Shown piece by piece: positions 9,400 to 47,959 of a stretch of 48,676 nucleotides of DNA. Below the pieces are notes generated by a model that was not told where the DNA came from, ran no database searches, and was given only the letters and a program-made list of their open reading frames with translations. Source of the stretch: Streptantibioticus parmotrematis. GTDB lineage: Bacteria; Actinomycetota; Actinomycetes; Streptomycetales; Streptomycetaceae. Numbering within the stretch: position 1 is the first letter of the stretch; every line of letters begins with the position of its first letter. The position numbers and the translations under genes were made by a program. Where the stretch lies: positions 1 through 48,676 of the forward strand of contig NZ_JAINVZ010000035.1 of the NCBI RefSeq assembly GCF_019890615.1, in the 5' to 3' direction.

Positions 9400-9609
9400 T
9401 CAGAAGTCGAGCCGGATCGTGATGGGGGTGCGGCGGTCGCCGTAGTCACGGCGGGGGTTGTGGACGGTCCGGCGGTGCGCTGCCAGGCCTGAGCCCCCGC
9501 TCTGGATCGGGAGGTGGCAGTCCGGGCAGCCGCTGAACCATTCATCGCCGGGCGGGAGGTCGGCCGGGGTGAGCGGATGGGGGTGCGGACCGTCGGCGGT
9601 CCGGCTCAC
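9400..9609 (-). CDS. Small C2H2-like zinc-finger protein (69 aa)
   Basis: GTG start at 9609 overlaps the stop of the upstream gene (GTGA). The middle reads CPDCHLP...AAHRRTVH, a Cys-x2-Cys followed by a pair of His with spacing close to a C2H2 finger, and is therefore a probable zinc site. The basic C-terminus (NPRRDYGDRRTPITI) could contact nucleic acid. It is the second of two neighbouring small Cys/His proteins in an overlapping chain with the P-loop kinase gene, so the three are probably one translational unit. Confidence 0.68.
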   Translation of the reverse strand: MSRTADGPHPHPLTPADLPPGDEWFSGCPDCHLPIQSGGSGLAAHRRTVHNPRRDYGDRRTPITIRLDF

Positions 9610-16998: not shown

Positions 16999-17095
16999 CA
17001 GCTGCTCCTTCAGGAACGGGAACGGGACGGGCGGCCCGCGATCCACGCGGGCCGCCCGGGGCGGATCGAGGGGTTGTGCCGGGGTGCGGGCGAGG

Positions 17096-19712: not shown

Positions 19713-19770
19713 GTCCGCCTCCCTCCTTCCGTGGAGCTTGACAAGGGATCGCCGCCTCGCGTACACGCGT

Positions 19771-19807
19771 GCGCGGCACGCGCGGTACGCGTCTCGCGCG
19801 GCACGCG
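19771..19807. promoter_or_regulatory. Direct repeat GCGCGGCACGCG, candidate operator of the transfer unit
   Basis: GCGCGGCACGCG occurs at 19771-19782 and 19796-19807, 25 bases apart. ACGCGT-type palindromes lie between and beside the copies (19760-19808). The cluster sits between the terminator at 19819 and the 19712 start, where the promoter of the 19712-to-14878 unit should be. Confidence 0.4.
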
Positions 19808-19818
19808 TTGGGAGACGC

Positions 19819-19853
19819 CGAAGGGCCGCCCTCGCGTCGAGGACGGCCCTTCG
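19819..19853 (-). terminator. Terminator after the 19864-20094 gene
   Basis: CGAAGGGCCGCCCTCG pairs with CGAGGACGGCCCTTCG (one mismatch, 3-base loop), starting 11 bases after the stop of the leftward gene. A compact, very stable hairpin in the right place. Confidence 0.78.
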
Positions 19854-19863
19854 TGCGTCGTGG

Positions 19864-20094
19864 TCAGTTGTGGCGGCGGTAGACGTTCTCCAGCGCCAGG
19901 GCCACATCCCGGATGAACCCGAGTTCACCGGAACGGAATGCCTGCGTGCCCCGGATATTCATCAGCCGAAGCCAGTAGTAGAACATTCCGAGTTCCTCGC
20001 CGTGAGCAGTCACCATTTCGGTTCTGATTTTCTGCTCATGCTGGGCCCGGTTGAACTGCTTGCGCTCAACCCGGGTGAGCGGGCGGCCTGTCAC
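19864..20094 (-). CDS. Small hypothetical protein (76 aa)
   Basis: ATG 20094 overlaps the stop of the upstream gene (ATGA). The product starts basic (MTGRPLTRVERKQFNRAQHEQK), and then MVTAHGEELGMFYYWLRLMNIRGTQ and FIRDVALALENVYRRHN form two helices. It is followed directly by a terminator, so it is the last gene of the 22-20 kb unit. It is predicted to be soluble. Unlike its neighbours, the first half has moderate GC and uses AT-ending codons, which may mean a different origin. No family recognised. Confidence 0.68.
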   Translation of the reverse strand: MTGRPLTRVERKQFNRAQHEQKIRTEMVTAHGEELGMFYYWLRLMNIRGTQAFRSGELGFIRDVALALENVYRRHN

Positions 20095-27914: not shown

Positions 27915-28027
27915 TTGTCCACAGGAGACGTCGGCCGGAGCGGGCCGATCCCGTGTGCCGGGAGACGATGCGAGGTTTCTGCCCCCCGGGCGGGAGCCGC
28001 GACGTCCCGCGCTCTGTCCACAGGAGA
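27915..28027. promoter_or_regulatory. DnaA-box-like direct repeats
   Basis: TTGTCCACA at 27915-27923 equals the Streptomyces DnaA-box consensus. The 13-base string TGTCCACAGGAGA at 27916-27928 recurs exactly at 28015-28027 (preceded by C), 99 bases away. Both lie just upstream of the rep gene. Confidence 0.55.
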
Positions 28028-28198
28028 TCGGGCTCAAGGTCAGGCCATGAACACGACATTGAGCCGTCTTCGGGTGGCCCGGTGAACGGCGCGGCGGCGC
28101 CGGCCGCTGTCGAGAGGCGCGTGCCCGGGCCGCGCCGTGGCCGAGAAGCGGAGGGCCACGCCGTTGTTCGCGCCCGTGAGACCGCGGAGCGGGGTGCG

Positions 28199-30436
28199 GT
28201 GCCGATCGTGACCCGGTTTCCGGCGGCGTGGCTCGCCTCGCTGACAGGGGACTGCATCCGGGTGGTGACCACGGTGCGGGACTACGGCCGCAAGTCGGGG
28301 GAGTGCTGGGCCTCGGACCAGACGATCGCCGACCGGCTGGGCCTGTCGCGCGGTGGTGTGAACCGCATGATCCGCAAGGCGGAGGCGTTAGGGCTCGTGG
28401 GCTCGTCGTACTACCCGCGAACGGGTACGCGTTCGCGGCAGGTGAGGCCCCTCCGCGAGGATGAACTCGCGGTGTGCGTGTCGGCGCGGGCGCGCGCCGA
28501 CTTGGCGGGGACCCGTTTCAAGGTCTACTCGGCCTTGTCGGTCCGGGAGCACCTGGGGGAACCGACTTCGTTGGCGCAGTTGTCGCGGATGTGCGGGATC
28601 ACTGTGGAGACAGCGCGGGTGGTCGCGGCTGAGCTGGTCGCGGACGGCTGGGTGGAGCGCCAGGGGAAGGGTGGCGGGGCGTTCCAGTACGTCGTGCACG
28701 CCGTGCCGGTGGCGGGGGTGGCGACGCAGTTGTCGTTGTTCCCGCAGCCGCAGCAGTCGGCCCGGCCCGCGGACGAGGAGACCGGGACCGGGAGCGACAG
28801 GAGCGAGGTCGAGGCGGGGTTCTGCTCGGGGCAACTGGCGCTGGTCGATCCGGCGTTGACCCCCCTCGAGCTGGTGACAGCTACCCCCTTGGATTCGGTG
28901 ACAGCACCCCCCCTTGATCTGGTCGCACAAACAGGCAACCTTGATCAGGATCTTGTGAATAGGCAGGTGGCAGGGGGTTGCTGTTCCCGCGAAGCGGAAA
29001 GGTCCGTAGCGCGTGAGCGCGCGGGCTCGCGCGAGGAGCAGCACCGTGCCGGCGCCAGCTCGCGTGAGCCATTGGTGACGGTGAGCCCGCTGCGTGGGGA
29101 ACAGCAAAAGGAGTCCTCCGCCGAGCAGCAGCGGGGTAATCGACGCGGCGGCAAGGAGGTTGTTGCCCGGCCATCAACCGCGGGGCACCACCATCGGAGC
29201 GCGACGTTCCCCGATGATGTTCGTCTTCGGGTGGCTCTGGCTCCGGTCGCGGGGCTGTGGGGGCGGTTGTCGGGCTGGCAGCAGGACCAGGTCGAGTCGG
29301 CGGCGAAGGCGGAACTCGTACGGCTGGCCGCTGTGCTGCCGCAACCGGACTTCGCGGCGCAGCTACTGGCCGACCGGCTCGCCGACCGACTGAACGAGGC
29401 CGGCGGCGAAGTACTGGTACGCAGCCCCTACGGCTGGCTCACCCACCGCGGTCTACCACGCCGGTCCGCCTGCACCGACGTACGCTGCGACGACGGCATC
29501 CGGCTGGACACCCGTAGGGACTGCGAGATGTGCGCCAACGTCATCCACCTGCGACGCGCCGGTCGCGCGGCGATCACCGCGCAGGTCGACCGAGACTTCC
29601 CGGGGCTGAATCCTCACCAGCGCCGACAGATCGCCGAGGAACGGCTGCGCCGCAGGACGGCGCAGGAGGCCGAGGACCTCGCCCGGCGCAAGGCGCAGGC
29701 CGCTGTCGAACAGTCCCGTGCCAAGACGGCCACCGCGCAGCTCCGAGCCGACGCCGAGGACGCCGAACGAGTTCGACGCGCGCGACCGTGCGCCGACTGC
29801 GGCATGCCCGGGGCGGCAGGGTTGTGCCCCACGTGCGGAGAGAAGCGCACCACCGAGACGACCATCCGCCAAGCCTCGGTGGTGGCGGCCGCAGGCTGGT
29901 CCGACGCCACCGACCGGCACGACATCGATGCGGTCATCCGCGAAGCCGAGGCCACGGTCCGCGCAGGAATCGCCGAAGCGCAGGCGCAGTTGAGCTGCGC
30001 GGGAGAGCCGGTGAGCGAGCACGTCCTCGCCGTTGCCGGCCGCCTGGCCGCTCAGAACGCCGCCGACGACTGCGAGCGCTCCGCTGTGTCGAGCTTGGCG
30101 CGCAGCCCGGAAGCCGAGACCGAAGCGGCCCTCGCGTACGAGGCAACGATGCGCTCGGCCCACCGCTACCCCACCCGGGCCGCCGCGAGCGACGCCGCGG
30201 CCGAGGCGGCGGAACAAGCGCGCCAACGCACCGCCCGACACCTGCTGGACCGGCGCATCACCGAGATCCTCGCTGCCCGCTCCACACGCCAGGAGCTCAT
30301 CGGCATCCGGCCCGGCTCCTGGACGTGCAGCGACTGCGGCCGGACCTCACAGCGCACACCGCCGCAGTCCGGACGATGCCTCAGCTGCGAACTCACCCAC
30401 CACAACACCCCGACCAGCCAAGGAGCTCCAGCGTGA
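28199..30436 (+). CDS. Winged-helix replication initiator-like protein with zinc ribbons (745 aa)
   Basis: Two winged helix-turn-helix segments occupy the N-terminal 170 residues: SDQTIADRLGLSRGGVNRMIRKAEALGL, and SLAQLSRMCGITVETARVVAAELV followed by GWVERQG. A long variable part follows (its DNA carries 24-bp repeats), then a helical middle and three Cys clusters (CTDVRC...CEMC, CADCGMPGAAGLCPTC, CSDCGRT...CLSC) resembling zinc ribbons. Linear Streptomyces plasmids of the pSLA2 type use a DNA-binding Rep with internal iterons together with a DnaB-like helicase; both parts occur here, the helicase at 37242. The GTG start at 28199 is a choice; the frame is open to 27953 and a GTG at 28082 is possible. 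Confidence 0.68.
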   Translation: MPIVTRFPAAWLASLTGDCIRVVTTVRDYGRKSGECWASDQTIADRLGLSRGGVNRMIRKAEALGLVGSSYYPRTGTRSRQVRPLREDELAVCVSARARADLAGTRFKVYSALSVREHLGEPTSLAQLSRMCGITVETARVVAAELVADGWVERQGKGGGAFQYVVHAVPVAGVATQLSLFPQPQQSARPADEETGTGSDRSEVEAGFCSGQLALVDPALTPLELVTATPLDSVTAPPLDLVAQTGNLDQDLVNRQVAGGCCSREAERSVARERAGSREEQHRAGASSREPLVTVSPLRGEQQKESSAEQQRGNRRGGKEVVARPSTAGHHHRSATFPDDVRLRVALAPVAGLWGRLSGWQQDQVESAAKAELVRLAAVLPQPDFAAQLLADRLADRLNEAGGEVLVRSPYGWLTHRGLPRRSACTDVRCDDGIRLDTRRDCEMCANVIHLRRAGRAAITAQVDRDFPGLNPHQRRQIAEERLRRRTAQEAEDLARRKAQAAVEQSRAKTATAQLRADAEDAERVRRARPCADCGMPGAAGLCPTCGEKRTTETTIRQASVVAAAGWSDATDRHDIDAVIREAEATVRAGIAEAQAQLSCAGEPVSEHVLAVAGRLAAQNAADDCERSAVSSLARSPEAETEAALAYEATMRSAHRYPTRAAASDAAAEAAEQARQRTARHLLDRRITEILAARSTRQELIGIRPGSWTCSDCGRTSQRTPPQSGRCLSCELTHHNTPTSQGAPA
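28868..28945 (+). repeat. 24-bp direct repeats inside rep
   Basis: GGTGACAGC at 28873 and 28897 and GGTCGCACA at 28921 lie in exact 24-bp register, each preceded by a TTGGAT/TTGATC-like or TCGAGCT stretch and the first two followed by C runs. They encode an eight-residue repeat (LVTATPLD, SVTAPPLD, LVAQTGNLD). Iterons inside the rep coding sequence would match the pSLA2-type origin. Confidence 0.5.
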
Positions 30437-35504: not shown

Positions 35505-36503
35505 TTGGCCGACGTGAGGGTCCGTTGTCCGAGCTGTCCTGATCACCCTGTGCTCAACGCGCCCGAGGACACTGATACCCGCAAGTGCATCCGCTGCCAG
35601 GGCGATCACCGCTGGCTGTCTGAACCTCATCCGAGCGATCACCTGTGCGGGGTATGCCGGAGCGAGTGCCCGGTCTGCCACGCGCCCAACGGGCCCGGGA
35701 AGAGCGGTGTTTGCCGGGACTGCTCGCGTCAGTGCCGGCGTTGCGGGGGCACGGTGCCTGAGCGTGAAGCCGAGGTGGAGACCGTCGCACCACGACCCGG
35801 TAGTTCCCGAACCCGGCTCCGGTTTTCCGCGACCTGGTCGCGGACCCTGTGTGACCGGTGCCTGCAGGGGTTCCGTAACGAGGAGGAGCAAGTCCTTGCC
35901 GCATTTCCCGCGAAGCTGCTGCGGGCCTGCGGCGGTCACCCCCCTCACGCGGTCTACGAGGTGCGCCGTCAGCTCTCCAGCGGCGTGAAGGTCCACCGGC
36001 TGGTCGACCGGGTCGAACGCCGCTGGTCCCTGGGATGGGCCCACCGGCCCTTGAGGCGGGAAGCCGACGAGGAGACAACCGCCTACGAACCGGCCGACGT
36101 TGCCCTGTGGCTCGTCGCTCCCACCGCCTGCCGGGGCGGGTGCGAAGACGGCTGGGATCCCAGCAACCCGGACCGGCCCTGCGCCACCTGCCAGCCCCGT
36201 ACACCGCACCGGCCCATCGTCGAGCGCAGCGAGACTGCTGCCGACATGGCCGCCACGGCCCGCCAGGCGGCGCGCGCGGCCAAGTCGGCCACCACGCCAG
36301 GAGAGTATGTTCCGGCCGATTCCACCGAGGACGCGGACGTCCGCGTGCGACGCGTTCACGCCTTGATAGAGCAGAAGCGGACCCGGAAGGCGACCGAGCG
36401 CCGGCCCGAAATCAGCATCGCGGAAGAGCAGGCAGACCCTGTGTGGGCCGCCGCACTGCAACGTGCACGCCGGGAGCGCCGCCGCCCGCTTGACGGCTCA
36501 TGA
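35505..36503 (+). CDS. Multi-zinc-ribbon protein (332 aa)
   Basis: TTG 35505 behind GGAGGAGG (MADVRVRCPSCPDHP). At least six Cys-x2-Cys pairs stand in the first 120 residues (CPSC, CIRC, CGVC, CPVC, CRDC, CRRC, CDRC), and two more later (CRGGC, CATC). This gives three or four zinc sites of the ribbon or LIM/RING-like kind. The middle (LAAFPAKLLRACGG, VHRLVDRVERRWSLGWAHRPL) and C-terminus (Arg/Ala-rich helices, RARRERRRPL) are basic and helical. It is probably DNA- or RNA-binding. It is the first gene of a rightward unit with the DciA-like and DnaB-like genes, so a role in replication is likely but not shown. Confidence 0.75.
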   Translation: MADVRVRCPSCPDHPVLNAPEDTDTRKCIRCQGDHRWLSEPHPSDHLCGVCRSECPVCHAPNGPGKSGVCRDCSRQCRRCGGTVPEREAEVETVAPRPGSSRTRLRFSATWSRTLCDRCLQGFRNEEEQVLAAFPAKLLRACGGHPPHAVYEVRRQLSSGVKVHRLVDRVERRWSLGWAHRPLRREADEETTAYEPADVALWLVAPTACRGGCEDGWDPSNPDRPCATCQPRTPHRPIVERSETAADMAATARQAARAAKSATTPGEYVPADSTEDADVRVRRVHALIEQKRTRKATERRPEISIAEEQADPVWAAALQRARRERRRPLDGS

Positions 36504-36552
36504 TCTCGTCAGCGCCGACGCTGGCCCCGATGCCGCACCGCCCTGGAGACGT

Positions 36553-37173
36553 ATGGTGAGTCCAATGCCCCCGAAGGGGCGCGACCTTGCGCTGATCGCG
36601 TTGCGCGCAGCACGCGAGAGCGCTGGTCGCAGAGCGGTCCACCCCGGCCGAGCGCCGGTTGACAACCGGCCGCTGTTCAGCCGCAGCAATCCTCAGCTGA
36701 TCGGCCAGCTCATCTGCGAGATGATCGAAAGCCGCGGATGGGCGAGCGCAGATCCGCTGACCGCCTGGTGGCGTACAGCCGTCGATCACGTAATCGCTGA
36801 GCACGCCGAACCAACGGCGTTCGATCCGGTGGCTGGCAATCTCGTGGTGCGCGCAGACTCAATCGCCTGGGCCACCCAGCTGCGCCTGCTGGCCCCCCAA
36901 CTCGTCGAACGCCTCACAACCCCGCCAGGCGGATCCTCCGTGCGCACCATCACCATCTACGGTCCGAAACGCGGCACATATCAGCAAGTGCTGCCGCAAC
37001 TTCCGTCGGGCGCCCGCGCACCCGAGCGGCGGGCCGTGGCTGAGCCTCCGGTGGACGCCGCCATCGAAGCAGCCCGTGCACGGCAAGCGCACTCGGCAAT
37101 CCGCGAGCCAGTCCGGGAGTTCGCCCAGGCCCGAAGCCTTCTGGCTTCTGGACGAGGCCATAGGCCGTGGTGA
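36553..37173 (+). CDS. DciA/DUF721-like helicase-loader candidate (206 aa)
   Basis: ATG 36553 behind CTGGAGACGT. The N-terminus is basic (PPKGRDLALIALRAARESAGRR). The core matches the DUF721/DciA pattern: WWRTAVDHVIAEHAEPTAFDPVAGNLVVRADSIAWATQLRLLAPQLVERL, here broken only for description, i.e. Trp-x-x-Val...Ile-Ala-x-His, a Leu-x-Val strand, then Ser-x-x-Trp-Ala-x-Gln-Leu. DciA proteins load or stimulate the DnaB replicative helicase in bacteria lacking DnaC. The next gene, 68 bases downstream, is a DnaB-type helicase, so the context strongly supports the assignment. The C-terminus is extended and Ala/Arg-rich. The start could also be ATG 36565. Confidence 0.75.
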   Translation: MVSPMPPKGRDLALIALRAARESAGRRAVHPGRAPVDNRPLFSRSNPQLIGQLICEMIESRGWASADPLTAWWRTAVDHVIAEHAEPTAFDPVAGNLVVRADSIAWATQLRLLAPQLVERLTTPPGGSSVRTITIYGPKRGTYQQVLPQLPSGARAPERRAVAEPPVDAAIEAARARQAHSAIREPVREFAQARSLLASGRGHRPW

Positions 37174-37241: not shown

Positions 37242-38573
37242 GTGGCTGATGACGGCCAGTCACTCCACGATATCTCGGCAGAGAAGAACGTCTTGCGCGC
37301 CATGCTGCTTTCACCGGCGGTTGTCGCTGATGTTGTGGAAATCTTGCACGGCTCTGATTTCTACCGTCCTGCCCACGACCTGATTTACACCTCACTCCTG
37401 GCCTTGTACGCGCGAAACGAGCGCGGAGACATCTCAGCCCTCACTGCGCTCTTGACGGAACAGCAACTGGAAAGCGCAGGAGGAGCCGATTACCTCCACT
37501 CGCTGCTCGAAAGCACATCGAAAGGTAAACATAGTTGGCGCAGGGACGCCCAACGTATCCAGAAGCTTTCCGTCGTAAGGCGCACTCAGGCTGCCGCGGT
37601 CCACATCGAGGGGATGGTCAGCGACGCGACCACCGAGAACCTCGATCGCATCGCAGACGAAGCGCAGGCAGAAATCTTCGCCGCGACCACCCGCCACGCA
37701 GGCATACCGCCAGCCCTCGCGATCGCAGAAGTCCTCGACGGCACTCTGGATCAACTGGAGGCCCTTGCCAGCACTGCGGGAGCGAACCCGGGCGTACCGA
37801 CTGGGTTCGACGATCTCGACGCACTCACCGGAGGAGGGCTCCATCCCGGTCACCTCGTGGTCATCGCCGGTCGGCCAGCCATGGGCAAGACCACCCTTGC
37901 TCTGGACTTCCTGCGCAGCGCAAGCATCACCCACGGTCTCCCGGCGGCTCTGTTCACCCTGGAATCGAACCGGCACGAAATCGCCATGCGGGTGTGCAGC
38001 GCCGAATCCCGAGTCGCACTTCACCACATGCGCTCCGGCAACATGACGGAAGATGACTGGACCCGACTGGCAAGGAAAATGCCGGACATCTCGGCAGCCC
38101 CTCTCTATATCCAGGACGGAGCGTACGGAACATTTGTTGACCTGCGCCCCCAGTGTCGGCGACTGGTCGCCCAGCGCGATGTACGTCTAATCGTGATCGA
38201 TGGATTGCACACTCTCACCTACGGCACTCGGCCCTTCGCCTCCCGCTACGAAGAAGTATCCGAGATCTCGCGATGCCTCAAGTTGCTCGCCAAGGAACTC
38301 GGCGTCACAGTCGTCGCCACGTCCCAGCTCAACCGCGGCCCCGAACAACGCGTGGACAAAAAGCCCCTGCTGTCAGATCTGAGAGACTCCGGTGCTCTGG
38401 AGGATAATGCAGATCTAGCTATCCTCATTCACCGGGAGGACGCCTATGATAAGGAAAGTCCTCGAGCGGGTGAGGCTGACCTCATTGTTGCAAAGCACCG
38501 GAACGGCCCAACGGCAACAATTACCGTGGCTGCACAAAATCACTATTCAAGGTACGTGGAAATTGCGCGGTAG
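37242..38573 (+). CDS. DnaB-type replicative helicase (443 aa)
   Basis: GTG 37242 behind AGGAGGCTCAT. The N-terminal domain begins SLHDISAEKNVLRAMLLSPAVVADVVEIL, as in DnaB. The RecA-like motor has Walker A GRPAMGKTTLAL (about residue 210), FTLESNRHEIAMR, Walker B LIVIDGLHTL, VVATSQLNRGPEQR and the DnaB-specific LSDLRDSGALEDNADL with HRED. Length and motifs are complete, so it should be active. With the winged-helix Rep it mirrors the two-gene replication system of linear Streptomyces plasmids such as pSLA2. The last 300 bases before 38573 are AT-richer than the rest of the window, which may reflect a different history. Confidence 0.92.
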   Translation: MADDGQSLHDISAEKNVLRAMLLSPAVVADVVEILHGSDFYRPAHDLIYTSLLALYARNERGDISALTALLTEQQLESAGGADYLHSLLESTSKGKHSWRRDAQRIQKLSVVRRTQAAAVHIEGMVSDATTENLDRIADEAQAEIFAATTRHAGIPPALAIAEVLDGTLDQLEALASTAGANPGVPTGFDDLDALTGGGLHPGHLVVIAGRPAMGKTTLALDFLRSASITHGLPAALFTLESNRHEIAMRVCSAESRVALHHMRSGNMTEDDWTRLARKMPDISAAPLYIQDGAYGTFVDLRPQCRRLVAQRDVRLIVIDGLHTLTYGTRPFASRYEEVSEISRCLKLLAKELGVTVVATSQLNRGPEQRVDKKPLLSDLRDSGALEDNADLAILIHREDAYDKESPRAGEADLIVAKHRNGPTATITVAAQNHYSRYVEIAR

Positions 38574-38866: not shown

Positions 38867-39835
38867 TTGATGACCATCGACATCACCACGCGTCAGCACG
38901 ACCTGCTCACACTGTGCGCACTGCGCGCCGGCAACGCTTGTGTCGACTGGAGCCTGATCGCCCGCAACGCCGTGGGTCCCGACGGCCTCGCGGACCTCCT
39001 GGACGGCCGACTTCGCGAGGACTCGCGCGCCGCCTCCAAGAACCGGCCCGTGCTTCAGCGGGCCCTCTCCGAAGGCCTAGACTCCGCTCGCGCGCGCGTC
39101 GACGACGAATTGACGGCAGCCGAGAAGGTGGGTGCCCGCCTGGTGACCGTCCTCGATGAGGACTACCCGGCAAACCTGCGTCTGATCGGCAACCTCCCGC
39201 CGTTCCTGTTCTACCGCGGTGAACTCGACCGCCGCGACGCCCGCTCGATCGCCGTCGTCGGAACCCGCACGGCCACGGAGGACGGACTGCGGCGGGCTGC
39301 CCGGATGGCCCGCGAGCTGATCGACCACGACGTCGTGATCGCCAGCGGTCTCGCCAAGGGCATCGACGCCGCTGCCCACCAAGCCACCCTCGACGCGGGC
39401 GGCCGGACCTTCGCCGTCATGGGCACCGGCATCGCGGCCCCCGTTTACCCCGCCGAGAACCGCCCGCTTGCGAAAGCCATCCTTGCCGCCGACGGCGCCT
39501 TGCTGAGCCAGTTCTGGCCCACCAGCGGACCAGCGAAGTACACCTTCCCGCGCCGCAACGTCGTCACCTCCGGCACCACCTTGGGCAGCGTCGTCATCGA
39601 GGCCTCCCACACCTCCGGGGCCAAAATGCAGGCGCGTATTGCCGCTGAGCACGGAAAACTCGTCTTCTTGATCAAGTCGCTCGCGGATACTCAAGGCTGG
39701 GCGGCGGCGATGCTCGCCGACAACCGCGCGATCCTGGTCACCCGTTCCAGCGATATCACCGAACGTCTCAGCCGGGCCGCCGACGTCCAGCGCGCCGGAC
39801 AGCAGCGCCAGCAGCTCGTCCTGGCCGGCCTGTGA
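38867..39835 (+). CDS. DprA/Smf-like protein (322 aa)
   Basis: ATG 38867 or 38870. A helical N-terminal domain of about 110 residues is followed by LVTVLDEDYPANLRLIGNLPPFLFYRGEL and the DprA Rossmann fold: SIAVVGTRTATEDG, VIASGLAKGIDAAAHQATLDAGG, FAVMGTGIAAPVYPAENRPLAKAI, YTFPRRNVVTSGTTLGSVVIEA, TSGAKMQARIAAEHG. Canonical DprA loads RecA on single-stranded DNA in transformation. This one departs from the usual VFAVPG strand (LVFLIKSLADTQGW) and lacks the extra C-terminal winged helix. DprA is a member of the SLOG superfamily, which includes nucleotide sensors. It overlaps the ComF-like gene (GTGA), so the two proteins are made together. Confidence 0.88.
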   Translation: MMTIDITTRQHDLLTLCALRAGNACVDWSLIARNAVGPDGLADLLDGRLREDSRAASKNRPVLQRALSEGLDSARARVDDELTAAEKVGARLVTVLDEDYPANLRLIGNLPPFLFYRGELDRRDARSIAVVGTRTATEDGLRRAARMARELIDHDVVIASGLAKGIDAAAHQATLDAGGRTFAVMGTGIAAPVYPAENRPLAKAILAADGALLSQFWPTSGPAKYTFPRRNVVTSGTTLGSVVIEASHTSGAKMQARIAAEHGKLVFLIKSLADTQGWAAAMLADNRAILVTRSSDITERLSRAADVQRAGQQRQQLVLAGL

Positions 39836-40575
39836 CGACAAACGTCCCGGAACCAGCGGGTTTTCCCAACTGCCCCGTCTGCGCCTACCTCGCTAATGGC
39901 ACAGCCCGCTTGTGCTCCGAGTGCGCCGGACGCACCCTCCAGCCCCTCGCCGACCACCACTGTCCCGTCTGCTCGCAGCTGGTCGTGCCCGGCCGGTCGT
40001 GCGCCAACCGCTTATGTGCGCTGCCAGTGGCTCAGCGCGGGTTCTCCCGGGTTGATGCCATAGCGGTCTACTCAGGAGCGTTGCGCTACAAGATCCAAAG
40101 ACTGAAATATGAGGGTGTGCGTGGTTGGGCGCTCATCTTCGGACGCCTCCTCATCGGCTGGATGGAAACACATCCTGAGCGGATGCAGGGCGTCGATCAC
40201 GTTGTGGGCAACCCCACTCACACCGGTCGTCAGCCCCTCCAGCACATCGAGGCGATCATGGACGCCGCCTACGCAGAGGACGTGACCCGTACCTTTCCAC
40301 TGAGCCCCCCGGGTCGGCACCGCCTCGTGAAAGCTGCGGAAACCCCTCGCTCTGCTACGAAACCCCTCGACGCCAAGCGGGCGGCCGGAGCCGCGCACGC
40401 CGCCGCCGTCACCTGGGCTGGCGACCTGCACGACCTCAAGGGCGCCACGATCCTCCTCGTCGACGACATCCTCACCAGCGGGTCCACCCTCCAGCACGTC
40501 GCGCTCCGGCTCCGGGCATACGGTGCTGCGGATGTTCGCGGCCTCGTCCTCGCACGCGTCCCTTGGAGTGGATAG
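39832..40575 (+). CDS. ComF-like phosphoribosyltransferase (247 aa)
   Basis: GTG 39832 overlaps the DprA-like stop. The N-terminal zinc part has CPVCAYLANGTARLCSEC and CPVCSQLVVPGRSCANRLC. RVDAIAVYSGALRYKIQRLKYEGVRGW is the ComF hallmark region. The PRTase loop is ILLVDDILTSGSTL (about residue 205), with both Asp and TSGST intact, so PRPP or a related nucleotide should bind. ComF acts in DNA uptake in competent bacteria, with unclear chemistry. Coupling to a DprA-like protein on a plasmid is notable because both are competence proteins and no uptake machinery is present. Confidence 0.88.
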   Translation: MTTNVPEPAGFPNCPVCAYLANGTARLCSECAGRTLQPLADHHCPVCSQLVVPGRSCANRLCALPVAQRGFSRVDAIAVYSGALRYKIQRLKYEGVRGWALIFGRLLIGWMETHPERMQGVDHVVGNPTHTGRQPLQHIEAIMDAAYAEDVTRTFPLSPPGRHRLVKAAETPRSATKPLDAKRAAGAAHAAAVTWAGDLHDLKGATILLVDDILTSGSTLQHVALRLRAYGAADVRGLVLARVPWSG

Positions 40576-40666
40576 CCCGCACGCGGTTCCCGCCGTCACG
40601 AACCGCAGCGCGTCGTGTTCGTCCCCCACCGCCACAGCTCACCTGCCTTAGTGTGGCGCTGACGTC

Positions 40667-40681
40667 GCGGTCAGTGACCGC
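40667..40681. promoter_or_regulatory. Perfect palindrome upstream of the SNF2 gene
   Basis: GCGGTCAGTGACCGC has 7-bp arms around one base. It lies 25 bases before the GTG start of the SNF2 gene, between the ComF-like gene and it. It could be an operator overlapping a promoter or the leader. Confidence 0.4.
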
Positions 40682-40705
40682 AGGGCCGTGCGTGAAAGGA
40701 AAACT

Positions 40706-43700
40706 GTGGGCGTGGGTTCTGCTGCGACGGCCGGAGTTCGCATGGCCGCAGGCCTGGACGTCGCCGCCTTGAATGCTGAGCGGTGGCACGAGCATCTGAA
40801 GGGACTCGTTGGCGAGGCCGCCGACCTCTCCATGGTCCGCGATGCCATCCGGCGGTGCCGCGCGAAGGTACTGACGGTCCGCGACATGCGGCTGATCCTG
40901 CTCGCCACCGCGGATGACCCAGCGTGGGAGCCAGCCCGGCACGCGGTGATCGCTTTCCTCGAAGACCGCCTCGATGTGGCCCGCCAGATCCTGGTCTCAC
41001 ACGCGCAGGTGGAGGTGTGGCCCGTACCTCGCTTCGAGGAAGGCACCGAACGCACGCAGCACGAGGGCGCGTTGATCGCGGCGAGAGCGGTGATCGGGCC
41101 TCTAGACCGTCCGGTCACCGGGCCGACGGTGCGGGCCCGCACCAGCCGGGAGGCCCAGGATCGGGCCGCGCTCGCGCTGCTGGCGCGGATTGCTGGCGTT
41201 CCCCGGACCGGCGAGAGCGCGGCTGCCGAACGGCTGGCCCTGCCCGGCATGCCGACCGAGATCTTCGAGAACCGACTGGCACGGGCGATCGCGGACTGCC
41301 GACATCCCGATGACGAGTTGGCGCACGAGGCGATGGGCCGCGCTCGGTCAGGTCGGCTCCGGCATCGCGATATGTATCTGCTGCTGCTGTCCGCACACGG
41401 CCAGGCTTGGGCGAGACTGCGGAAGGCCGCCCTGGAACGAGCCGCCGCCATGCCCCCGGCGCCAGCACGGCTGCTGCACTGGCACGGCGAGCACCACGGC
41501 AACGAGCAGGCCCTCACCTACAACGAGGAACTCGACCCGAGCGGCCGCACGATCGTGCGCGCAACGTTCCAGGTGGGCCGTACCTGGCAGGGCCCGGCCC
41601 GGTCGGCGTGGGCACGTAAAGCGGCCCGCCACTACGCCGCCACCGCGCTGCTCGCACAGGTAGCAGGGCTGCCCGAGCCGTCGATCGAGGTGGACGACAA
41701 GCCGGCAGAGGCAGTGCGGATCGCGGTGCCTGAACCGGGTCAGGATCCGGTGAAGTACCTGAACAAGTACTGCCAGAAGGAGGTGATCACCAAGCCGGAG
41801 GCGCAGATGCGCAACCTCGGCACGCGCGTGGAGTGCACCTACTCCTGCCAGCATCGGGAGTCTGGACCACAGGTCAGCGCGACCGCCGTCGCGGCGGACA
41901 AGGCCACCGCCCGCCAGGCGGCGGCCATGAAGCTGCTGCGCAAACTCGCGGACGTCGAATGTACTGCGCTCCGCGCGGCAGTGCCGCCGAGCCCGACGCC
42001 GACCGGGCGGGTGCCCACCCAGACCGTCGCAGTGCCGCCCCCGCTGCCCCGGCCGGCCACCGCGCCGACCAATCCACCGGCCCCGCTTGCGCCCCCGGCC
42101 CGGGTGTCGGCGCCCGTGCGGCTGTCACCGCACGGCACGACAGCGGAGGCGCTGCTGCGGGAAGCGATCGCGGCAGGGGCCGTGGTCACCTTCCGGCCCC
42201 CAGCGCGCCAGGAGCCGGCCGGATGGTCGGTACACGGCAGCAGCCGCGTCGTGCTGCCCCAGGCCGACCTGCCGCCACCGATCGAAGCCGACGCCGAACC
42301 GGGCAGCGGCGCTAAGTGGCGGGTACCGGTGGCCGTCGCTCTGCCGGCGATCCACCGCACGGCCGCAGGCGCCAGCCCTGCCGCGGTGTTCTGGCAGCGC
42401 GCCGTGCACCTGGTCCTGCAGCTCCTGCGCGCCAGGCTGCTCTACCCCGCGCTCGACGCGGACAACCTTCCGGTGTGGCGCCTCGGCCCGGTCCCCGCGG
42501 CCGCCGAAGCCGCGCTCGAAGCACTCGCGAACGCCGCCCCGAAGGATGCTGTGCCACCGGGTGCCGACGCCCGAGAGGTTCTCGTGGCATGCGGCGACGC
42601 GATCGCCGACGCTCTCACGCGCACCCCCGCTGGCGACCTCCTGCTCGGCCCCGGACCCTGGACCGAGCAGGCACCGACCAGGCTGACAACGAAGCTCCAA
42701 CGGTCCGTTGCCGACTGGCTTGATGAGGTCGAGGACCACGTCGACGGCGGCCCGACCCCTCTGCTGGTCGTCTGGATCCAGACACCGGCCGACGACCTGG
42801 CCGCCGTCGGCCGACTGACCGCCCACCTCCACCTGGCCCCCGTCGGCACCGACCCGGCAGACGAGTCCGCGGTCAAGGCGGCCGATGAGGTGTGGTCCGG
42901 CCGCGCGTTGCTGGGTGGCGAAGGGAAGGCCGTGGTCAGGCCACGAGTGCGCCGGGCCCTGCGGCGTGCAGCCCGAACCTGCCCGGCCCTGGCCGGGCTG
43001 GCCGAACAAGAGCGACCCTGCTCGTGCACCTTTCACCCCACAGCCGTGGAGGCACTGCTGGAGCAGGAAGACAACCTGCTCCAAGCCGGGGTGGCACTGG
43101 TGTGGCCCGAGGGCCTGCGCACCGCGTTGTCAGCGTCCGCGGTCATCGACACCGCCTCCGGCACGACACCCGGGCCGGGGGAGCGGCCGCGGTTCAGCGT
43201 GACGGACCTACTGGACTTCCGGTGGCAGATCGCCCTGGACGGCGTCGAGCTGACCGAGCAGGAGATGGACGCGCTCGCCGAAGCCGCCCGCCCCCTGGTA
43301 CGCGTGCGCGGCCGATGGGTGCTGGCCGATCCCGTCCTGCGACGCCGGGCTCGCCACCGCCTGCTCGGACAGCTGCCCGGCACCCAGGCGTTGGCCGCCG
43401 CGCTGACCGGCACCGTCACCCTCGACGGCACCGACGTGCCCTGCCGACCCGACGGCACCCTCGCGGACCTCGTCAGCATGCTGCGCCACGGCGAACACCA
43501 CCCGCAGCCCGTACCCGTGCCAACCCAGGTCACCGCGACGTTGCGCGACTACCAGCGCCGGGCCCTGACCTGGCTGGCACACACCACCGGCTGCGGCTTC
43601 GGCGCGCTCCTGGCCGACGACATGGGCCTGGGCAAGACCCTGACCGCGCTCGCGTTCACCTGCCACCACCAGCAGCACACACCCGGACCCACCCTCGTGA

Positions 43701-44959
43701 TCTGCCCCGCCTCGCTGGTCGCCACCTGGTGCCGCGAGGCTACCCGCTTCACGTCCGGCCTGCCCGTCGTCGCCTACCACGGCCCTGAACGCCACCGTGT
43801 CCTGGACAACCTCGACGACACCAGCGTGGTGGTCACCACTTACGGCCTGCTGCGACGCGACCACCAGCGGCTCGCCGATCAGCACTGGGCCCTGGTCATC
43901 GCGGACGAGGCCCAGCACGCGAAGAACTGCACGTCCGCGACGGCCCGGTCTTTGCGCGCCCTGTCCTCCACCAGCCGCCTGGCGATCACCGGCACCCCGG
44001 TAGAAAACAACCTGTCCGAGCTGCGCGCACTGCTGGACTGGGCCAACCCCGGACTGCTCGGCACCGAGAAGGAATTCCGGGCGCGCTGGGCCACCGCAGT
44101 GGAGAAGGACCCGCACGGCGAGAAGGCCGCCCAGCTCACCCGACTCATCGCCCCGTTCCTGCTGCGCCGCCGCAAGACCGACCCGGGTATCGCCCCCGAA
44201 CTGCCGGCGAAGATCGACCAACCGCGGCCCGTGCAGCTGACGAAGGAACAAGCGGGCCTGTACGAGGCCCTGGTGCGCGAGACCCTGGAACAGATCCGGA
44301 CAACCGCCGGGATCGAGCGCTCCGGCCTGGTGTTCAAACTGCTGACCGCCCTCAAGCAGATCACCAACCACCCAGCCCATTACCTACGCGAAGCACCTCC
44401 CACCGTCGACGAAGTGCCCGCGTTCACCGCACGATCCGCCAAAACCACCGCTCTCACCGAGCTGCTGGAGATCATCCGCGAACGCGGCGAGTGCGCGCTG
44501 GTCTTCACCAGCTACGTCGCCATGGGCCACCTGTTGACCACACACCTGGCCCATCTCGGATACCAGCCGCTTTTCCTCCACGGCACCACGACCCTGACAG
44601 AGCGCCAGCGCATGGTCGACGCCTTCCAGACCGGTCGCCACCCGGCGATGATCCTCTCCCTCAAAGCGGCCGGCACCGGCCTCACCCTCACCCGCGCCAC
44701 CCACGTCATCCACTACGACCGCAGCTGGAACGCCGCAGTCGAGGACCAGGCGACCGACCGCGCGCACCGCATCGGACAACACCGCACCGTCACCGTCCAC
44801 CGCCTGATCACCGAGCACACCGTCGAAGACCGCATCGACGAACTCCTCACCCGCAAACGCGCCCTCGCCGACGCCGTCCTGACCGGCGGCGACCGAGCCC
44901 TCACTCAGCTGACAGACCGCGAACTCGCCGACCTTGTCACCCTGGGAGCCCGCCTATGA
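40706..44959 (+). CDS. dsRBD-like repeats fused to a SNF2-family helicase (1417 aa)
   Basis: GTG 40706 with AAAGGA six bases upstream. C-terminal motor from about residue 945: DYQRRALTWL, LLADDMGLGKTLTA (Walker A), VIADEAQHAKN (DEAQ box), ITGTPVENNLSELR, then VFTSYVAMGHL, LKAAGTGLTLTRATHV and DRAHRIGQ, all SNF2 motifs. The N-terminus is unusual. A helical unit with CRAKVLTVRDMRLILL recurs as ARSGRLRHRDMYLLLL. Each is followed by a segment resembling a double-stranded-RNA-binding domain (about 92-166 and 252-324), and a third such segment follows (347-417, PVKYLNKYCQKE...KATARQAAAMKLLRKL). A Pro-rich linker joins this to the middle part. Likely nucleic-acid remodelling; RNA or RNA-DNA recognition is inferred. 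It overlaps the SWIM gene (ATGA). Confidence 0.88.
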   Translation: MGVGSAATAGVRMAAGLDVAALNAERWHEHLKGLVGEAADLSMVRDAIRRCRAKVLTVRDMRLILLATADDPAWEPARHAVIAFLEDRLDVARQILVSHAQVEVWPVPRFEEGTERTQHEGALIAARAVIGPLDRPVTGPTVRARTSREAQDRAALALLARIAGVPRTGESAAAERLALPGMPTEIFENRLARAIADCRHPDDELAHEAMGRARSGRLRHRDMYLLLLSAHGQAWARLRKAALERAAAMPPAPARLLHWHGEHHGNEQALTYNEELDPSGRTIVRATFQVGRTWQGPARSAWARKAARHYAATALLAQVAGLPEPSIEVDDKPAEAVRIAVPEPGQDPVKYLNKYCQKEVITKPEAQMRNLGTRVECTYSCQHRESGPQVSATAVAADKATARQAAAMKLLRKLADVECTALRAAVPPSPTPTGRVPTQTVAVPPPLPRPATAPTNPPAPLAPPARVSAPVRLSPHGTTAEALLREAIAAGAVVTFRPPARQEPAGWSVHGSSRVVLPQADLPPPIEADAEPGSGAKWRVPVAVALPAIHRTAAGASPAAVFWQRAVHLVLQLLRARLLYPALDADNLPVWRLGPVPAAAEAALEALANAAPKDAVPPGADAREVLVACGDAIADALTRTPAGDLLLGPGPWTEQAPTRLTTKLQRSVADWLDEVEDHVDGGPTPLLVVWIQTPADDLAAVGRLTAHLHLAPVGTDPADESAVKAADEVWSGRALLGGEGKAVVRPRVRRALRRAARTCPALAGLAEQERPCSCTFHPTAVEALLEQEDNLLQAGVALVWPEGLRTALSASAVIDTASGTTPGPGERPRFSVTDLLDFRWQIALDGVELTEQEMDALAEAARPLVRVRGRWVLADPVLRRRARHRLLGQLPGTQALAAALTGTVTLDGTDVPCRPDGTLADLVSMLRHGEHHPQPVPVPTQVTATLRDYQRRALTWLAHTTGCGFGALLADDMGLGKTLTALAFTCHHQQHTPGPTLVICPASLVATWCREATRFTSGLPVVAYHGPERHRVLDNLDDTSVVVTTYGLLRRDHQRLADQHWALVIADEAQHAKNCTSATARSLRALSSTSRLAITGTPVENNLSELRALLDWANPGLLGTEKEFRARWATAVEKDPHGEKAAQLTRLIAPFLLRRRKTDPGIAPELPAKIDQPRPVQLTKEQAGLYEALVRETLEQIRTTAGIERSGLVFKLLTALKQITNHPAHYLREAPPTVDEVPAFTARSAKTTALTELLEIIRERGECALVFTSYVAMGHLLTTHLAHLGYQPLFLHGTTTLTERQRMVDAFQTGRHPAMILSLKAAGTGLTLTRATHVIHYDRSWNAAVEDQATDRAHRIGQHRTVTVHRLITEHTVEDRIDELLTRKRALADAVLTGGDRALTQLTDRELADLVTLGARL

Positions 44960-46209
44960 CCCTCCGACCCTCCACCGCCGGATGGGCCCACGGCCTGGCC
45001 GCCACCCTCCTCAGCCAGGCCGTGCACGACACCACGCTCTGGACAACCGCACGTCACCTGGCCGCCGACGGCACAGCAGGACCACTGAACATCAACAAGG
45101 GCTCCGCCACCGTGAAGTTCTTCCTGCCCGACGGCCGCCACTGCCGCCCGCGCCTGGTCGTCACCGAACTGACCGACACGGACTGGGACCGCGTCGAAGC
45201 AGCGATCACCGCCCGCCCCGACGCCGCCGAACTCGCCGGCACCAATGCCATCAGCGACCAATTCGCCGACCCGGCCGCCACCGGCGGCATCCCCATCCTC
45301 CCCACCGCGCACGACATCTCCCACACCTGCGACTGCACCCCCACTGCAGCGGCCTCGCCCTGCCCGCACAGCCTCGCCGTCGGACTCCTCCTCGCGGACC
45401 GGATCCGCACCGCACCCGCACCCCTGTTCACCCTCCGCGGCCGCCCCCACCAGAACCTGAAGAATCGACTCCGCAACAGCCCTCCTCCACCAGGCCCCGG
45501 CACCCTGCACAGCGCCGCACCGGTCATCCCGGCGACACGCCACCCACACGCCTCCACGCCACCAGAACCGGAAGCCCTGCCCACCGTTGCGATTCCCGAG
45601 CCGGTCGACCTCGACCTGACCAGCGCTCAGCCAGCACTGCAGCCCGCGAAACTCACACCGCCCCCTGCACCACTGCCGCATCTGGATCAACTCACCCTGC
45701 TCGCAGCTGACACCGCCCACCGAGCCGCTCGACTCCTGGACCAGGGCGAGCCACCATTGTGCGAGGACCCCGCCGGCGACCTCGCCCGCTTCACGTCGCT
45801 CCCGCACGGGGCCGATTACCGGCAGACGGCCATGGACCACCTCGGCCTGGCCGCCATCGACATGGGCCACCTCCAACTCGCCTACACCTATGGCGGCCCC
45901 GGCGGCACTGCCGCCTACCTCGAACCGTTCCACCTCGAGCACGACGCCCTCGCCGACGCCCAGACAGCCATCCAACCGCACCGCCCCGCCCCAACCGCCC
46001 CCATCGAATACGCCGAGAACCGCCTCACCGACCGCGCGGCCGGCGTCCAGCTGCGCTACGGACCCGACGGACGCTGGCACCCCTACCGCGCCCCCTACGG
46101 CCCCTGGCGGCCCGTCCCGGGCCCCTCGTCCGATCCCGCCCAGGCCTACCGCGCCGCGCGCACCGCCGCCCGCAACAACCTCGCCAGAAAAGGCCGAACT
46201 GCCCGATAA
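44956..46209 (+). CDS. SWIM zinc-finger protein (417 aa)
   Basis: ATG 44956 overlaps the SNF2 stop by four bases; the much longer upstream frame runs through the SNF2 gene in a wrong frame. The SWIM finger reads HTCDCTPTAAASPCPHSLAVGLLL (Cys-x-Cys...Cys-x-His). The N-terminus (WAHGLAATLLSQAVHD, SATVKFFLPDGRHCRPRL) precedes it as in other SWIM proteins. A Pro-rich linker and a C-terminal domain of about 150 residues follow, with MDHLGLAAIDMGHLQLAYTYGGPGGTAAYLEPF. SWIM proteins pair with SNF2 helicases in many bacteria, consistent with direct partnership here. The Tyr/Pro-rich end (WHPYRAPYGPWRPVPG) is unassigned. Confidence 0.85.
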   Translation: MTLRPSTAGWAHGLAATLLSQAVHDTTLWTTARHLAADGTAGPLNINKGSATVKFFLPDGRHCRPRLVVTELTDTDWDRVEAAITARPDAAELAGTNAISDQFADPAATGGIPILPTAHDISHTCDCTPTAAASPCPHSLAVGLLLADRIRTAPAPLFTLRGRPHQNLKNRLRNSPPPPGPGTLHSAAPVIPATRHPHASTPPEPEALPTVAIPEPVDLDLTSAQPALQPAKLTPPPAPLPHLDQLTLLAADTAHRAARLLDQGEPPLCEDPAGDLARFTSLPHGADYRQTAMDHLGLAAIDMGHLQLAYTYGGPGGTAAYLEPFHLEHDALADAQTAIQPHRPAPTAPIEYAENRLTDRAAGVQLRYGPDGRWHPYRAPYGPWRPVPGPSSDPAQAYRAARTAARNNLARKGRTAR

Positions 46210-46836: not shown

Positions 46837-47103
46837 TCAGCGGGCGAGCGCTCCCGTCAGGCTGGTGCGGTAGCCGTCCTCGTCCATCAGCATGACGCCG
46901 AACAGATCGGGGTGGTCCAGCTCGACGGGGGTGAAGGTGCCCTGCCCTCGAGCACGGCGACCTTGTCCAGTCGGGGTGCAGCGCTTGGCCAGGTGTGAAG
47001 CATCCAGGCTCCAGATTCGTACCGGCCAGGGCGGGTTACCAGGTGTGTGGGATTGGTGGTTCGCGGGCTGATGCGGAGCCGTGCCGGTAAGGTCGCCGGT
47101 CAT
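46837..47103 (-). CDS. Doubtful hypothetical protein (88 aa)
   Basis: The start at 47103 overlaps the start region of the divergent peptidase gene. The C-terminal half has coding character (PVELDHPDLFGVMLMDEDGYRTSLTGALAR); the first half is Pro/Thr/His-rich and weak. A shorter product from about 47020 (VRIWSLDASHLAKRC...) is possible. It could be the 3' remnant of a longer gene. No family recognised. Confidence 0.3.
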   Translation of the reverse strand: MTGDLTGTAPHQPANHQSHTPGNPPWPVRIWSLDASHLAKRCTPTGQGRRARGQGTFTPVELDHPDLFGVMLMDEDGYRTSLTGALAR

Positions 47104-47959
47104 GAAGGGGAAGCCAGTGCCGTGGGGTTGGTGGGTGCCACGGACCGTGGTGCCGCTGATGGCGTGCGCGGTGGAGGTCGCTCGATTGCGTCACGGTCCA
47201 GCTTCGGGCGTGTGGGCAGCGGCGGTCATCACGGCCGTGGTCGTGGCGGGGTTGAACGTGGCGGCCTTGCAGGGCGCTGTCTGGGCCGGCCTGGTGGGGC
47301 GGCAGATGACCTGGTCCGCGTATCTGCGGCTTGCGGAGCTGGCCGAGGGTGGCCCAGTGGTCCAGGACGCTCAATTCCTCGCCCGGTCGATGCGCCGGGT
47401 CGAAGAGCGTGTGGAGAGCTTCGTGCGAGAGACGGACCTCGAGCACGTCTCGCTGGCTGTCACGGGGGGACGGATCGGCTCCTGGCACGAAGCGGGCTCG
47501 ATGCGTTCCGGCCGCAACGGGCATGTGGCTCTGGGCTACTTCTGGCTGTGTCCCGAACACAGCGCTGCTTTGCCGTACATCGTGGAACACGAACTGGCGC
47601 ACCTGCGCCGAAACGACTCGCGAGTGCACCTGCTCCTCACCTCGATCCGCGCCGGTTGCATCGTGCTGTGCCTCGGCCTTCTCCCGATCCTTCCGGCGCT
47701 CCTCGTTGTGGGGCTCCTCGCCGTGTCAATCCTCGGTCACGCGTGGTGGACCGAGCTGGCATGTGACCGTGCGGCCGCGGTGCGGTGCGGCCGTGACGTC
47801 GCAGTCGGCGCGTGGAAGCTTGACTTGAACCAGATGCGCCAACTCCCGCTGTTAAGGCGGGCGTTCTCTTCGGCAGTGGCGATGTGCACCCACCCTCCGG
47901 CGGCCGTGCGCCTGTGGTGGGCCCGCAAATCCCCTGACCTGCCGATTTCTGCGTCATGA
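47102..47959 (+). CDS. Membrane zinc metallopeptidase, M48/M56-like (285 aa)
   Basis: ATG 47102 (MKGKPVPWGWWVPRTVVPLM); an in-frame GTG at 47081 would add seven residues. Membrane helices: VVPLMACAVEVARL, AAVITAVVVAGLNVAALQGAVWAGL, and after the active site CIVLCLGLLPILPALLVVGLLAVSILG. The zinc motif HELAH is in YIVEHELAHLRRNDSRVHL, and the third ligand is probably Glu in WWTELACDRAAAVRCG. HExxH between membrane spans and a downstream E-x-x-x-D are typical of M48 (HtpX/Ste24) and M56 (BlaR1) peptidases. No BlaI-type repressor is next to it. Substrate unknown; it may process membrane or exported proteins. Confidence 0.78.
   Translation: MKGKPVPWGWWVPRTVVPLMACAVEVARLRHGPASGVWAAAVITAVVVAGLNVAALQGAVWAGLVGRQMTWSAYLRLAELAEGGPVVQDAQFLARSMRRVEERVESFVRETDLEHVSLAVTGGRIGSWHEAGSMRSGRNGHVALGYFWLCPEHSAALPYIVEHELAHLRRNDSRVHLLLTSIRAGCIVLCLGLLPILPALLVVGLLAVSILGHAWWTELACDRAAAVRCGRDVAVGAWKLDLNQMRQLPLLRRAFSSAVAMCTHPPAAVRLWWARKSPDLPISAS

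Follow-up and report, generated by a model that had tools for sequence, protein, structure and literature searches.

Does a run of four large genes on a streptomycete replicon, encoding a DprA-like protein, a ComF-like phosphoribosyltransferase (PRTase), an SNF2-family ATPase and a SWIM-type zinc-finger protein, constitute a single system, or do distinct functional units merely lie side by side? The genes in question occupy positions 38867-46209, all on the plus strand, of a Streptantibioticus parmotrematis draft contig (NZ_JAINVZ010000035.1) that was analyzed in its entirety (48,676 bp; hereinafter, the window). An earlier, sequence-only reading considered them a candidate new defense or DNA-processing module. 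We conclude, with a probability of about 0.75, that they represent two independent, translationally coupled cassettes adjoining by chance, namely, a toxin–antitoxin (TA) pair of the ShosTA type and a remodeler that combines double-stranded RNA-binding domains (dsRBDs), an SNF2 motor and a SWIM protein. Good evidence that all four genes form a joint system is lacking.

Two coupled gene pairs

The layout described in the sequence-only reading is present as claimed: the four co-directional open reading frames (ORFs) form two coupled pairs, with a GTGA overlap between the dprA-like and comF-like genes and an ATGA overlap between the snf2 and swim genes. Because 112 bp separate the comF-like and snf2 genes, translational coupling does not extend from one pair to the other. 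The first pair consists of the DprA-like protein, a predicted ShosA-type antitoxin (38867-39835; TTG start, with an in-frame ATG at 38870), and the ComF-like PRTase, a predicted ShosT-type toxin with a double zinc ribbon (39832-40575; 247 amino acids, aa). The second pair comprises the SNF2-family ATPase (40688-44959; 1423 aa), in which an N-terminal dsRBD array is followed by DUF3670 and the SNF2 motor, and the SWIM-type zinc-finger partner with its conserved C-terminal region (44956-46209). The likelier start of the snf2 gene is the GTG at 40706, located after AAAGG.

The claim that these four genes act as one system is not supported by gene order: the arrangement dprA–comF–snf2–swim was seen in the window only. 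In a tblastn search of 72,556 plasmids, the two pairs are adjacent on none of the 12 plasmids with matches to both ComF and SWIM; the smallest gap is 2.2 kb, and both orientation and order vary. These 12 plasmids are among 24 that carry the DprA–ComF pair, and 7 of them form the closely alike S. cellulosae/althioticus group. Of 394 related genomes, 20 others bear DprA, and no SNF2 or SWIM match (E 1e-5) appears in the 6.9-19.5 kb inspected around it in each; a contig end 1-3 kb behind ComF shortens the inspected stretch in G206, G085 and G022. The six plasmids with the closest SNF2 proteins (55-66% identity) yielded no DprA of at least 54% identity and no ComF match (among the best 60 of 235 DprA records and the best 60 of 520 SNF2 records), and neither DprA nor ComF lies within 10 kb of the closest SNF2 genes at two GTDB loci. 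A four-gene module, having no conserved order, was rejected. The pairs do meet on some replicons: in S. liliifuscus, three genes separate snf2–swim from dprA–comF, which is followed by an M48 protease gene, and on the 29.7-kb NBC_00829 plasmid, a SWIM remnant precedes dprA–comF, with an M48 gene further on; therefore, one plasmid backbone holds both pairs in one region.

The DprA–ComF pair

In the DprA-like protein, the DNA_processg_A domain spans aa 86-278 (Pfam, E 7.7e-57), and the domain search returned no match to a C-terminal winged helix. The ShosA component expected of a ShosTA system is recognizable in this protein, which matches the PADLOC ShosA model at 211 bits (E 5.7e-63) and, in the PDB, the solved ShosA structure 9vzo at E 9e-19. 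The ComF-like protein contains a Pribosyltran domain (Pfam, E 1.3e-8) as well as a DZR_2 match under its cut-off (2.8e-4); four zinc-ribbon cysteine pairs (CPVC, CSEC, CPVC and CANRLC) are encoded at 39871-40017, and the motif that binds phosphoribosyl pyrophosphate (PRPP), ILLVDDILTSGS (40450-40485), is intact. The DD pair of this motif is kept in 29 of 30 aligned ORFs downstream of DprA, the window counted. The rows of this alignment were chosen by position and length behind DprA; L002 (a chromosomal DprA locus), L019 and L038 (no such ORF), the disrupted copies L020, L021 and L029, and the same-place repeats L001 and L030-L033 were left out, and in the single row without the motif, L027, the assigned ORF is probably in the wrong frame. 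In PADLOC, the ComF-like protein matches ShosT (31.5 bits, E 3.9e-8) and PsyrT (3.3e-6). A 12-row PRTase profile reaches the solved ShosT structures 8zvb and 9w2p weakly (E 2.6e-4), behind PRPP synthetases at 1e-5 in the PDB, and 11 of the 12 PRTases of such pairs match ShosT, with the best E of 1.2e-41. The AlphaFold model of ComF alone (pLDDT, the predicted local confidence score, of 41.4) was unusable and was not used.

The suggestion of the sequence-only reading that the pair is better regarded as defense-type than as competence machinery agrees with these ShosA and ShosT matches and with the NCBIfam scores, which are below the cut-offs for both dprA (178.6 against 191.15 bits) and comF (29.4 against 233.55 bits). 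Also as stated there, no uptake genes were recognized by Pfam among the 28 window ORFs scanned. On these scores, and with uptake genes unseen, the competence DprA/ComF machinery was rejected. CoiA-like ‘competence’ genes do lie near dprA–comF on two other plasmids, from Embleya (L007:11687-12991) and S. venezuelae (L041:2914-4479).

The two genes are tightly associated. Among the plasmids, DprA matches 235 records, with at least 60% identity in 25 (among the best 60 of 235), and ComF matches 25, nearly full length in 24. DprA directly adjoins ComF on all 24 plasmids with a full-length ComF, the adjacent-operon arrangement expected of ShosTA, and ComF directly adjoins 24 of the 25 plasmid DprAs of at least 60% identity (again, among the best 60). 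Plasmid P9-2B-2 has a close DprA (80%) and no ComF, and one further record contains a 37-aa piece of ComF alone. More distant pairs with other neighbors are carried by Pseudonocardia, Mycobacterium and Rhodococcus plasmids, and three phage records inspected out of 35, those of Gordonia phages Vasanti and Bosnia and Burkholderia phage Mana, have the pair near integrases. In the 394 related genomes, for which the best 4-6 candidates per genome were scored in the DprA, ComF and SWIM searches, DprA (E to 1e-40) is found in 21, ComF (E to 1e-20) in 18 and both in 14. In the four ComF-only genomes, the ComF matches span only 93-113 residues; an ORF with the PRPP motif lies behind DprA in five of the seven DprA-only genomes, whereas G167 showed none and G117 was not resolved. 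In G085 and G145, comF is in pieces and dprA is incomplete or broken. A full-length ComF without an adjoining DprA sequence was not found in the plasmids and the 394 genomes, and scans of viral contigs detected no ComF and two distant DprA loci.

The literature describes a known kind of defense system built on the same theme. A DprA+PRTase pair is reported to protect against T7 and lambda, and DprA homologs are the antitoxins of shosTA, syrTA and rqlHI (PMC9122126); the PRTase domain of RqlH is genotoxic unless RqlI is present (PMC4670107); and in Actinobacteria, ShosTA tends toward plasmid encoding (PMC10482375). As Pu et al. 2025 are summarized in PMC12593503, ShosT is a phosphoribosyl transferase and pyrophosphatase that disturbs purine metabolism, with DNA duplications, ShosA binds DNA, and T7 Gp0.7 is the trigger; PMC10732053 instead places ShosTA among the systems activated by phage single-stranded DNA (ssDNA)-binding protein. 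By analogy with these characterized relatives, the ComF-like PRTase would be the toxin, which would use PRPP, with disturbed nucleotide pools and DNA damage as the expected consequences, and the co-translated DprA-like protein would be the antitoxin that restrains the PRTase until phage infection or plasmid loss. The outcome would be abortive infection and/or plasmid stabilization. The basis for this scheme in the window consists of homology, the intact PRPP motif, the conserved gene pair and the mobile contexts, whereas toxicity, neutralization and trigger are transferred from the relatives; a role of this cassette in defense and/or plasmid maintenance appears likely.

The dsRBD–SNF2 protein and its SWIM partner

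The motor part of the SNF2 protein is recognizable, with Pfam matches to SNF2-rel_dom (E 1.5e-60), DUF3670 and Helicase_C and with the motifs DDMGLGKT (aa 977), DEAQ (aa 1073) and DRAHRIGQ (aa 1357). The dsRBD noticed in the sequence-only reading is real and present in three copies, as indicated by AlphaFold, fold search and profiles; Pfam detects no dsRBD in the window SNF2 protein by itself. The AlphaFold model built on three rows (pLDDT 88.6; predicted template modeling score, pTM, 0.74) contains three alpha-beta-beta-beta-alpha units. Fold 1 (aa 94-171; 40967-41200) matches the second dsRBD of DRB3 (VIA Z 10.0, 2.0 A over 72 residues), fold 2 (aa 256-327; 41453-41668) matches HYL1 (Z 9.0, 1.8 A over 68 residues), and fold 3 (aa 349-426; 41732-41965), which is also supported by profiles, matches the second dsRBD of DCL4 (Z 10.7, 2.0 A over 77 residues); the VIA rows mainly test dsRBD 3, with dsRBDs 1 and 2 resting on fewer rows and the model. 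The best Foldseek matches are TARBP2, Loqs, R2D2 and Dicer entries (best E 4.2e-5). At the sequence level, a 10-row profile of repeat 3 retrieves TARBP2 (whole-chain E 3.5e-12, best single domain 2.6e-5), followed by Loquacious, Staufen and MLE. Pfam dsrm is found in 7 of the 10 repeat-3 rows at E up to 1 (best 2.2e-7), and the window row, which is not among these, reaches only DSRM_DHX29 (0.025). Repeats 1 and 2 are mutually related (profile E 1.3e-12) and weakly related to repeat 3. Fold and profile jointly identify these units as predicted dsRBDs, with sequence support for repeat 3 and mainly structural support for repeats 1 and 2. Helix 2 begins with an invariant basic residue in repeat 3 (K) and in repeat 2 (R).

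The dsRBD array has a narrow distribution. In the plasmids, it was found in 19 records (18 from Streptomyces and 1 from Embleya), corresponding to 18 SNF2 loci and 1 gene for an RNB ribonuclease (among the matches listed, which for SNF2 are the best 60 of 520 records). A 77-aa dsRBD query matched 9 of 388 related genomes, on contigs of 16 to 614 kb, and a scan of the GTDB genomes with two short peptide patterns revealed at least two dsRBD–SNF2 loci. No dsRBD was found at any of the five chromosomal SNF2 loci checked, where the similarity to the window SNF2 protein starts at aa 497-564, and a viral-contig scan detected no array. A class-wide search returned four matches with dsrm (one under the cut-off), with no SNF2 or RNB recognized by Pfam in the called ORFs. 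RNB ribonucleases with related C-terminal dsRBDs are encoded at L064:40-1743 (genome G068) and L084:2466-4292 (a Streptomyces sp. NBC_00582 plasmid); in G068, a dsRBD–SNF2 gene is located on the same contig as the RNB–dsRBD gene, ~34 kb away. Because related dsRBDs lie behind the RNB domain at these two loci, RNA is favored as the ligand.

The SWIM signature CxC-x8-CxH (aa 125-138; 45328-45369) has its C, C, C and H residues invariant in all 11 aligned rows, the window included, and the SWIM protein has no match in Pfam, PADLOC or NCBIfam. The swim gene is directly downstream of snf2 in nine plasmid loci; in Embleya (L052), the gene after snf2 is annotated only as a 390-bp ORF. SWIM-like matches, mostly weak, occur in 229 of the 394 related genomes (with the stronger places listed), as would be expected of a pair that is common on chromosomes.

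The predicted domains, the intact motor motifs and the gene pairing are the basis for a functional proposal in which we infer the RNA target and the action. The dsRBDs would anchor the SNF2 translocase on structured RNA, which would most probably belong to transcription or R-loop complexes of the replicon. There, SNF2 would remodel nucleoprotein, with the SWIM protein acting as a zinc-binding adaptor. We advance this mechanism tentatively, with the odds against it. Broader still would be an RNA-directed, chromatin-remodeler-like machine of streptomycete plasmids, in which three dsRBDs recognize double-stranded RNA (dsRNA) or structured RNA, together with a SWIM adaptor; with the related dsRBDs on the RNB ribonuclease, it would represent a plasmid-borne dsRNA-recognition toolkit, here backing a ShosTA-type suicide pair. 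This extension, in which the RNAs might be sense–antisense transcripts, R-loops or phage RNA, we consider unlikely.

Alternative explanations

Several observations weigh against the two-cassette reading and are considered here together with the alternatives to which they might lend weight. The four genes could after all be one defense system, with DprA and the PRTase as sensor and effector and the dsRBD–SNF2–SWIM proteins as the recognition and remodeling arm. Apart from their adjacency and common direction in the window, the pairs are 2.2-17.5 kb apart on five plasmids (S. liliifuscus, NBC_00073, nojiriensis, avidinii and F2), four of which resemble one backbone; on Embleya NBC_00896, an SNF2 gene without a SWIM match lies ~11 kb from DprA–ComF; and SNF2 motors are present in ZorD, DpdE and DrmD. 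The sequence-only reading had named, as the observation that would speak against a joint module, the finding of the pairs only independently of each other, co-occurring no more often than by chance. Each pair does occur alone, but genomes are shared above chance: DprA is present in 6 of the 21 genomes with the strongest SWIM matches compared to 21 of 394 (P 3.5e-4; 0.0019 without the window's own genome), with kinship uncorrected and the cut-off of the best 21 genomes picked after seeing the list. Among the genomes matched by the dsRBD query, DprA is found in 3 of 9 (P 0.009; 0.059 without the own genome). The gaps between pairs on shared plasmids are somewhat short as well (combined P 0.016 for 5 backbones, with one record per backbone, 5 of 8 rows, picked after seeing the data, and with two of the five, Embleya NBC_00896 and NBC_01724, having SNF2 without a SWIM match). 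A looser functional tie between the pairs may exist; we read the co-occurrence as shared residence on large streptomycete plasmids. Given the variable order, strand and spacing, with adjacency on 0 of the 12 other plasmids, the 20 other DprA genomes without SNF2 or SWIM nearby, and the closest SNF2–SWIM relatives without DprA–ComF, a single system is highly improbable.

Each cassette taken separately also admits another interpretation. The DprA–ComF pair might aid plasmid DNA processing (ssDNA protection, RecA loading, transfer or uptake) rather than function as a TA pair, as the family names and folds and the CoiA-like genes on the Embleya and S. venezuelae plasmids would suggest. Among solved structures, true DprA (3uqz, E 2e-33) is closer to the window DprA than ShosA 9vzo; the ShosT similarity of the ComF-like protein is weak and limited to the PRPP half; the GntX (E 5e-10) and ComF (6.8e-7) models fit this protein about equally, both far under the cut-off; and solved ShosT has 432 aa versus 247 aa in the window protein. 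In the draft genome G022, an intact comF lies behind a dprA of which aa 164-322 alone were found, a gene state that sits awkwardly with a strict antitoxin role. Nevertheless, the best defense-library models are ShosA and ShosT, the DprA score is under the dprA equivalog cut-off and the phage pairs lie near integrases, all of which makes the DNA-processing role quite unlikely. The SNF2–SWIM pair, in turn, might be an accessory of plasmid replication or repair, with the dsRBDs serving protein contacts or dimerization instead of binding RNA, a credible alternative at somewhat less than even odds. Genes for DnaB and a DciA-like protein are located upstream in the window, and in pFRL6, DciA is encoded ~5 kb upstream of SNF2; several of the best structural matches of the dsRBDs are protein-contact dsRBDs. 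The folds may serve such contacts alone, a shared fold being no demonstration of RNA binding, and repeat 2 alone finds no PDB dsRBD at significant E, with no sequence support outside the family. On the other side, the sequences flanking the other SNF2 loci (mostly 2.5 kb) revealed neither DciA nor DnaB, related dsRBDs are fused to the RNB ribonuclease, and the basic residue is invariant in repeats 2 (R) and 3 (K).

The replicon and its other genes

The sequence-only reading placed the four genes on a plasmid. This is supported by plasmid-like genes detected with Pfam, namely, those for ParA (699-1931) and, upstream of the four-gene stretch, a DciA-like protein (36463-37173) and DnaB (37242-38573), and by two overlapping tandem genes for tyrosine recombinases (804 and 417 aa; 4575-8239, minus strand), perhaps an integration or resolution module; however, the 48,676-bp draft contig has neither a terminal overlap nor inverted ends. 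The contig is likely to be a plasmid. A promoter and terminator scan gave no signal, with 1 promoter-like site (shuffle mean 0.5) and 3 terminator-like sites, all on the minus strand (shuffle mean 4.4), and an Rfam search gave no match.

Several other genes in the window deserve mention. A PycTM-like protein, that is, a membrane protein of the Pycsar-effector type, is encoded at 13221-13976 on the minus strand (Pfam E 1.1e-15; PADLOC PycTM 1.1e-11), with no cyclase partner recognized among the neighbors scanned. A P-loop kinase resembling the kinase domain of bacterial Pnkp (9869-10846, minus strand; NCBIfam E 2.7e-37 over aa 9-160) shows weak zeta-toxin similarity, and its gene has a 4-nt overlap with a small ORF (9606-9872). 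The ORF at 47081-47959 (plus strand) has sub-threshold Pfam matches (ADP_ribosyl_GH and Peptidase_M56); genes for relatives of its product, annotated as M48 metalloprotease, follow dprA–comF on the plasmids of S. liliifuscus and NBC_00829. Two large proteins of 722 and 803 aa (14878-17046 and 17517-19928, minus strand) have no match in Pfam, NCBIfam or PADLOC. An 827-aa protein (27953-30436, plus strand) with winged-helix matches, without an NCBIfam family, shows 34-36% identity to stretches near SNF2–SWIM in L053 and L055 and is possibly a plasmid replication or regulatory protein.

Comparison with known systems

The tempting four-gene ‘new defense system’ is unsupported, and half of it can be filed under a known kind of TA system, as a variant with a zinc-ribbon toxin. 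Like the ShosTA/DprA–PRTase pairs (the DprA+PRTase pair of P2 hotspots and the cousins RqlHI and PsyrTA), the window has a DprA-like gene beside that of a PRTase with an intact PRPP motif, and the pairs share carriage by plasmids and phages as well as matches to the ShosA and ShosT hidden Markov models. Unlike ShosTA, the window combines a double zinc ribbon, the short PRTase and its low ShosT score; the placement of dprA first and the coupling via a 4-nt overlap are further differences. Given the literature on ShosTA and DprA–PRTase pairs, DprA–ComF is therefore, as judged by sequence, a divergent member of this kind, already published as a class, and the ComF-like protein is a divergent ShosT member at best. 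What does not hold of the sequence-only reading here is novelty of the pair itself: DprA–PRTase/ShosTA systems are known, and PMC10482375 already reports the plasmid bias of ShosTA in Actinobacteria. The new feature of this cassette is the zinc-ribbon variant of ShosT.

The second cassette shares an SNF2 motor with ZorD, DpdE and DrmD, to which it has PADLOC matches within aa ~920-1420; unlike in those systems, only the generic motor is matched, and PADLOC recognized no Zorya, DISARM or Dpd partner in the 17 window proteins that it was given. Membership in ZorD, DpdE or DrmD was rejected, the matches covering the motor alone, and so was Zorya type I, with no ZorA or ZorB among the same 17 proteins and no nuclease domain by Pfam. 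The closest comparison is with the SCO1167/SCO6262 family helicase: the DUF3670–SNF2 part (aa 544-1419) covers nearly the whole NCBIfam model NF058637 at 937 bits, under the cut-off of 1200, and a SWIM-like gene follows downstream in the loci checked. The window protein differs in an N-terminal extension of ~540 residues that contains the three dsRBD folds. SNF2–SWIM and the chromosomal SCO1167/SCO6262 helicase pair are cousins. The RNB ribonucleases of L064 (on a 273-kb contig) and L084 (on a streptomycete plasmid) share profile-related dsRBDs with the window SNF2 protein; unlike in the latter, their catalytic part is an RNA exonuclease domain, with no SNF2 motor. No bacterial dsRBD–SNF2 protein was found described in open-licence PMC papers, and this architecture is what is new in the second cassette. 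This SNF2 motor with its three dsRBD folds is the odd part of the locus that we single out. To date, it has been found on plasmids and draft contigs of streptomycetes, and, if it does bind RNA, it would be a bacterial SNF2 remodeler steered by structured RNA.

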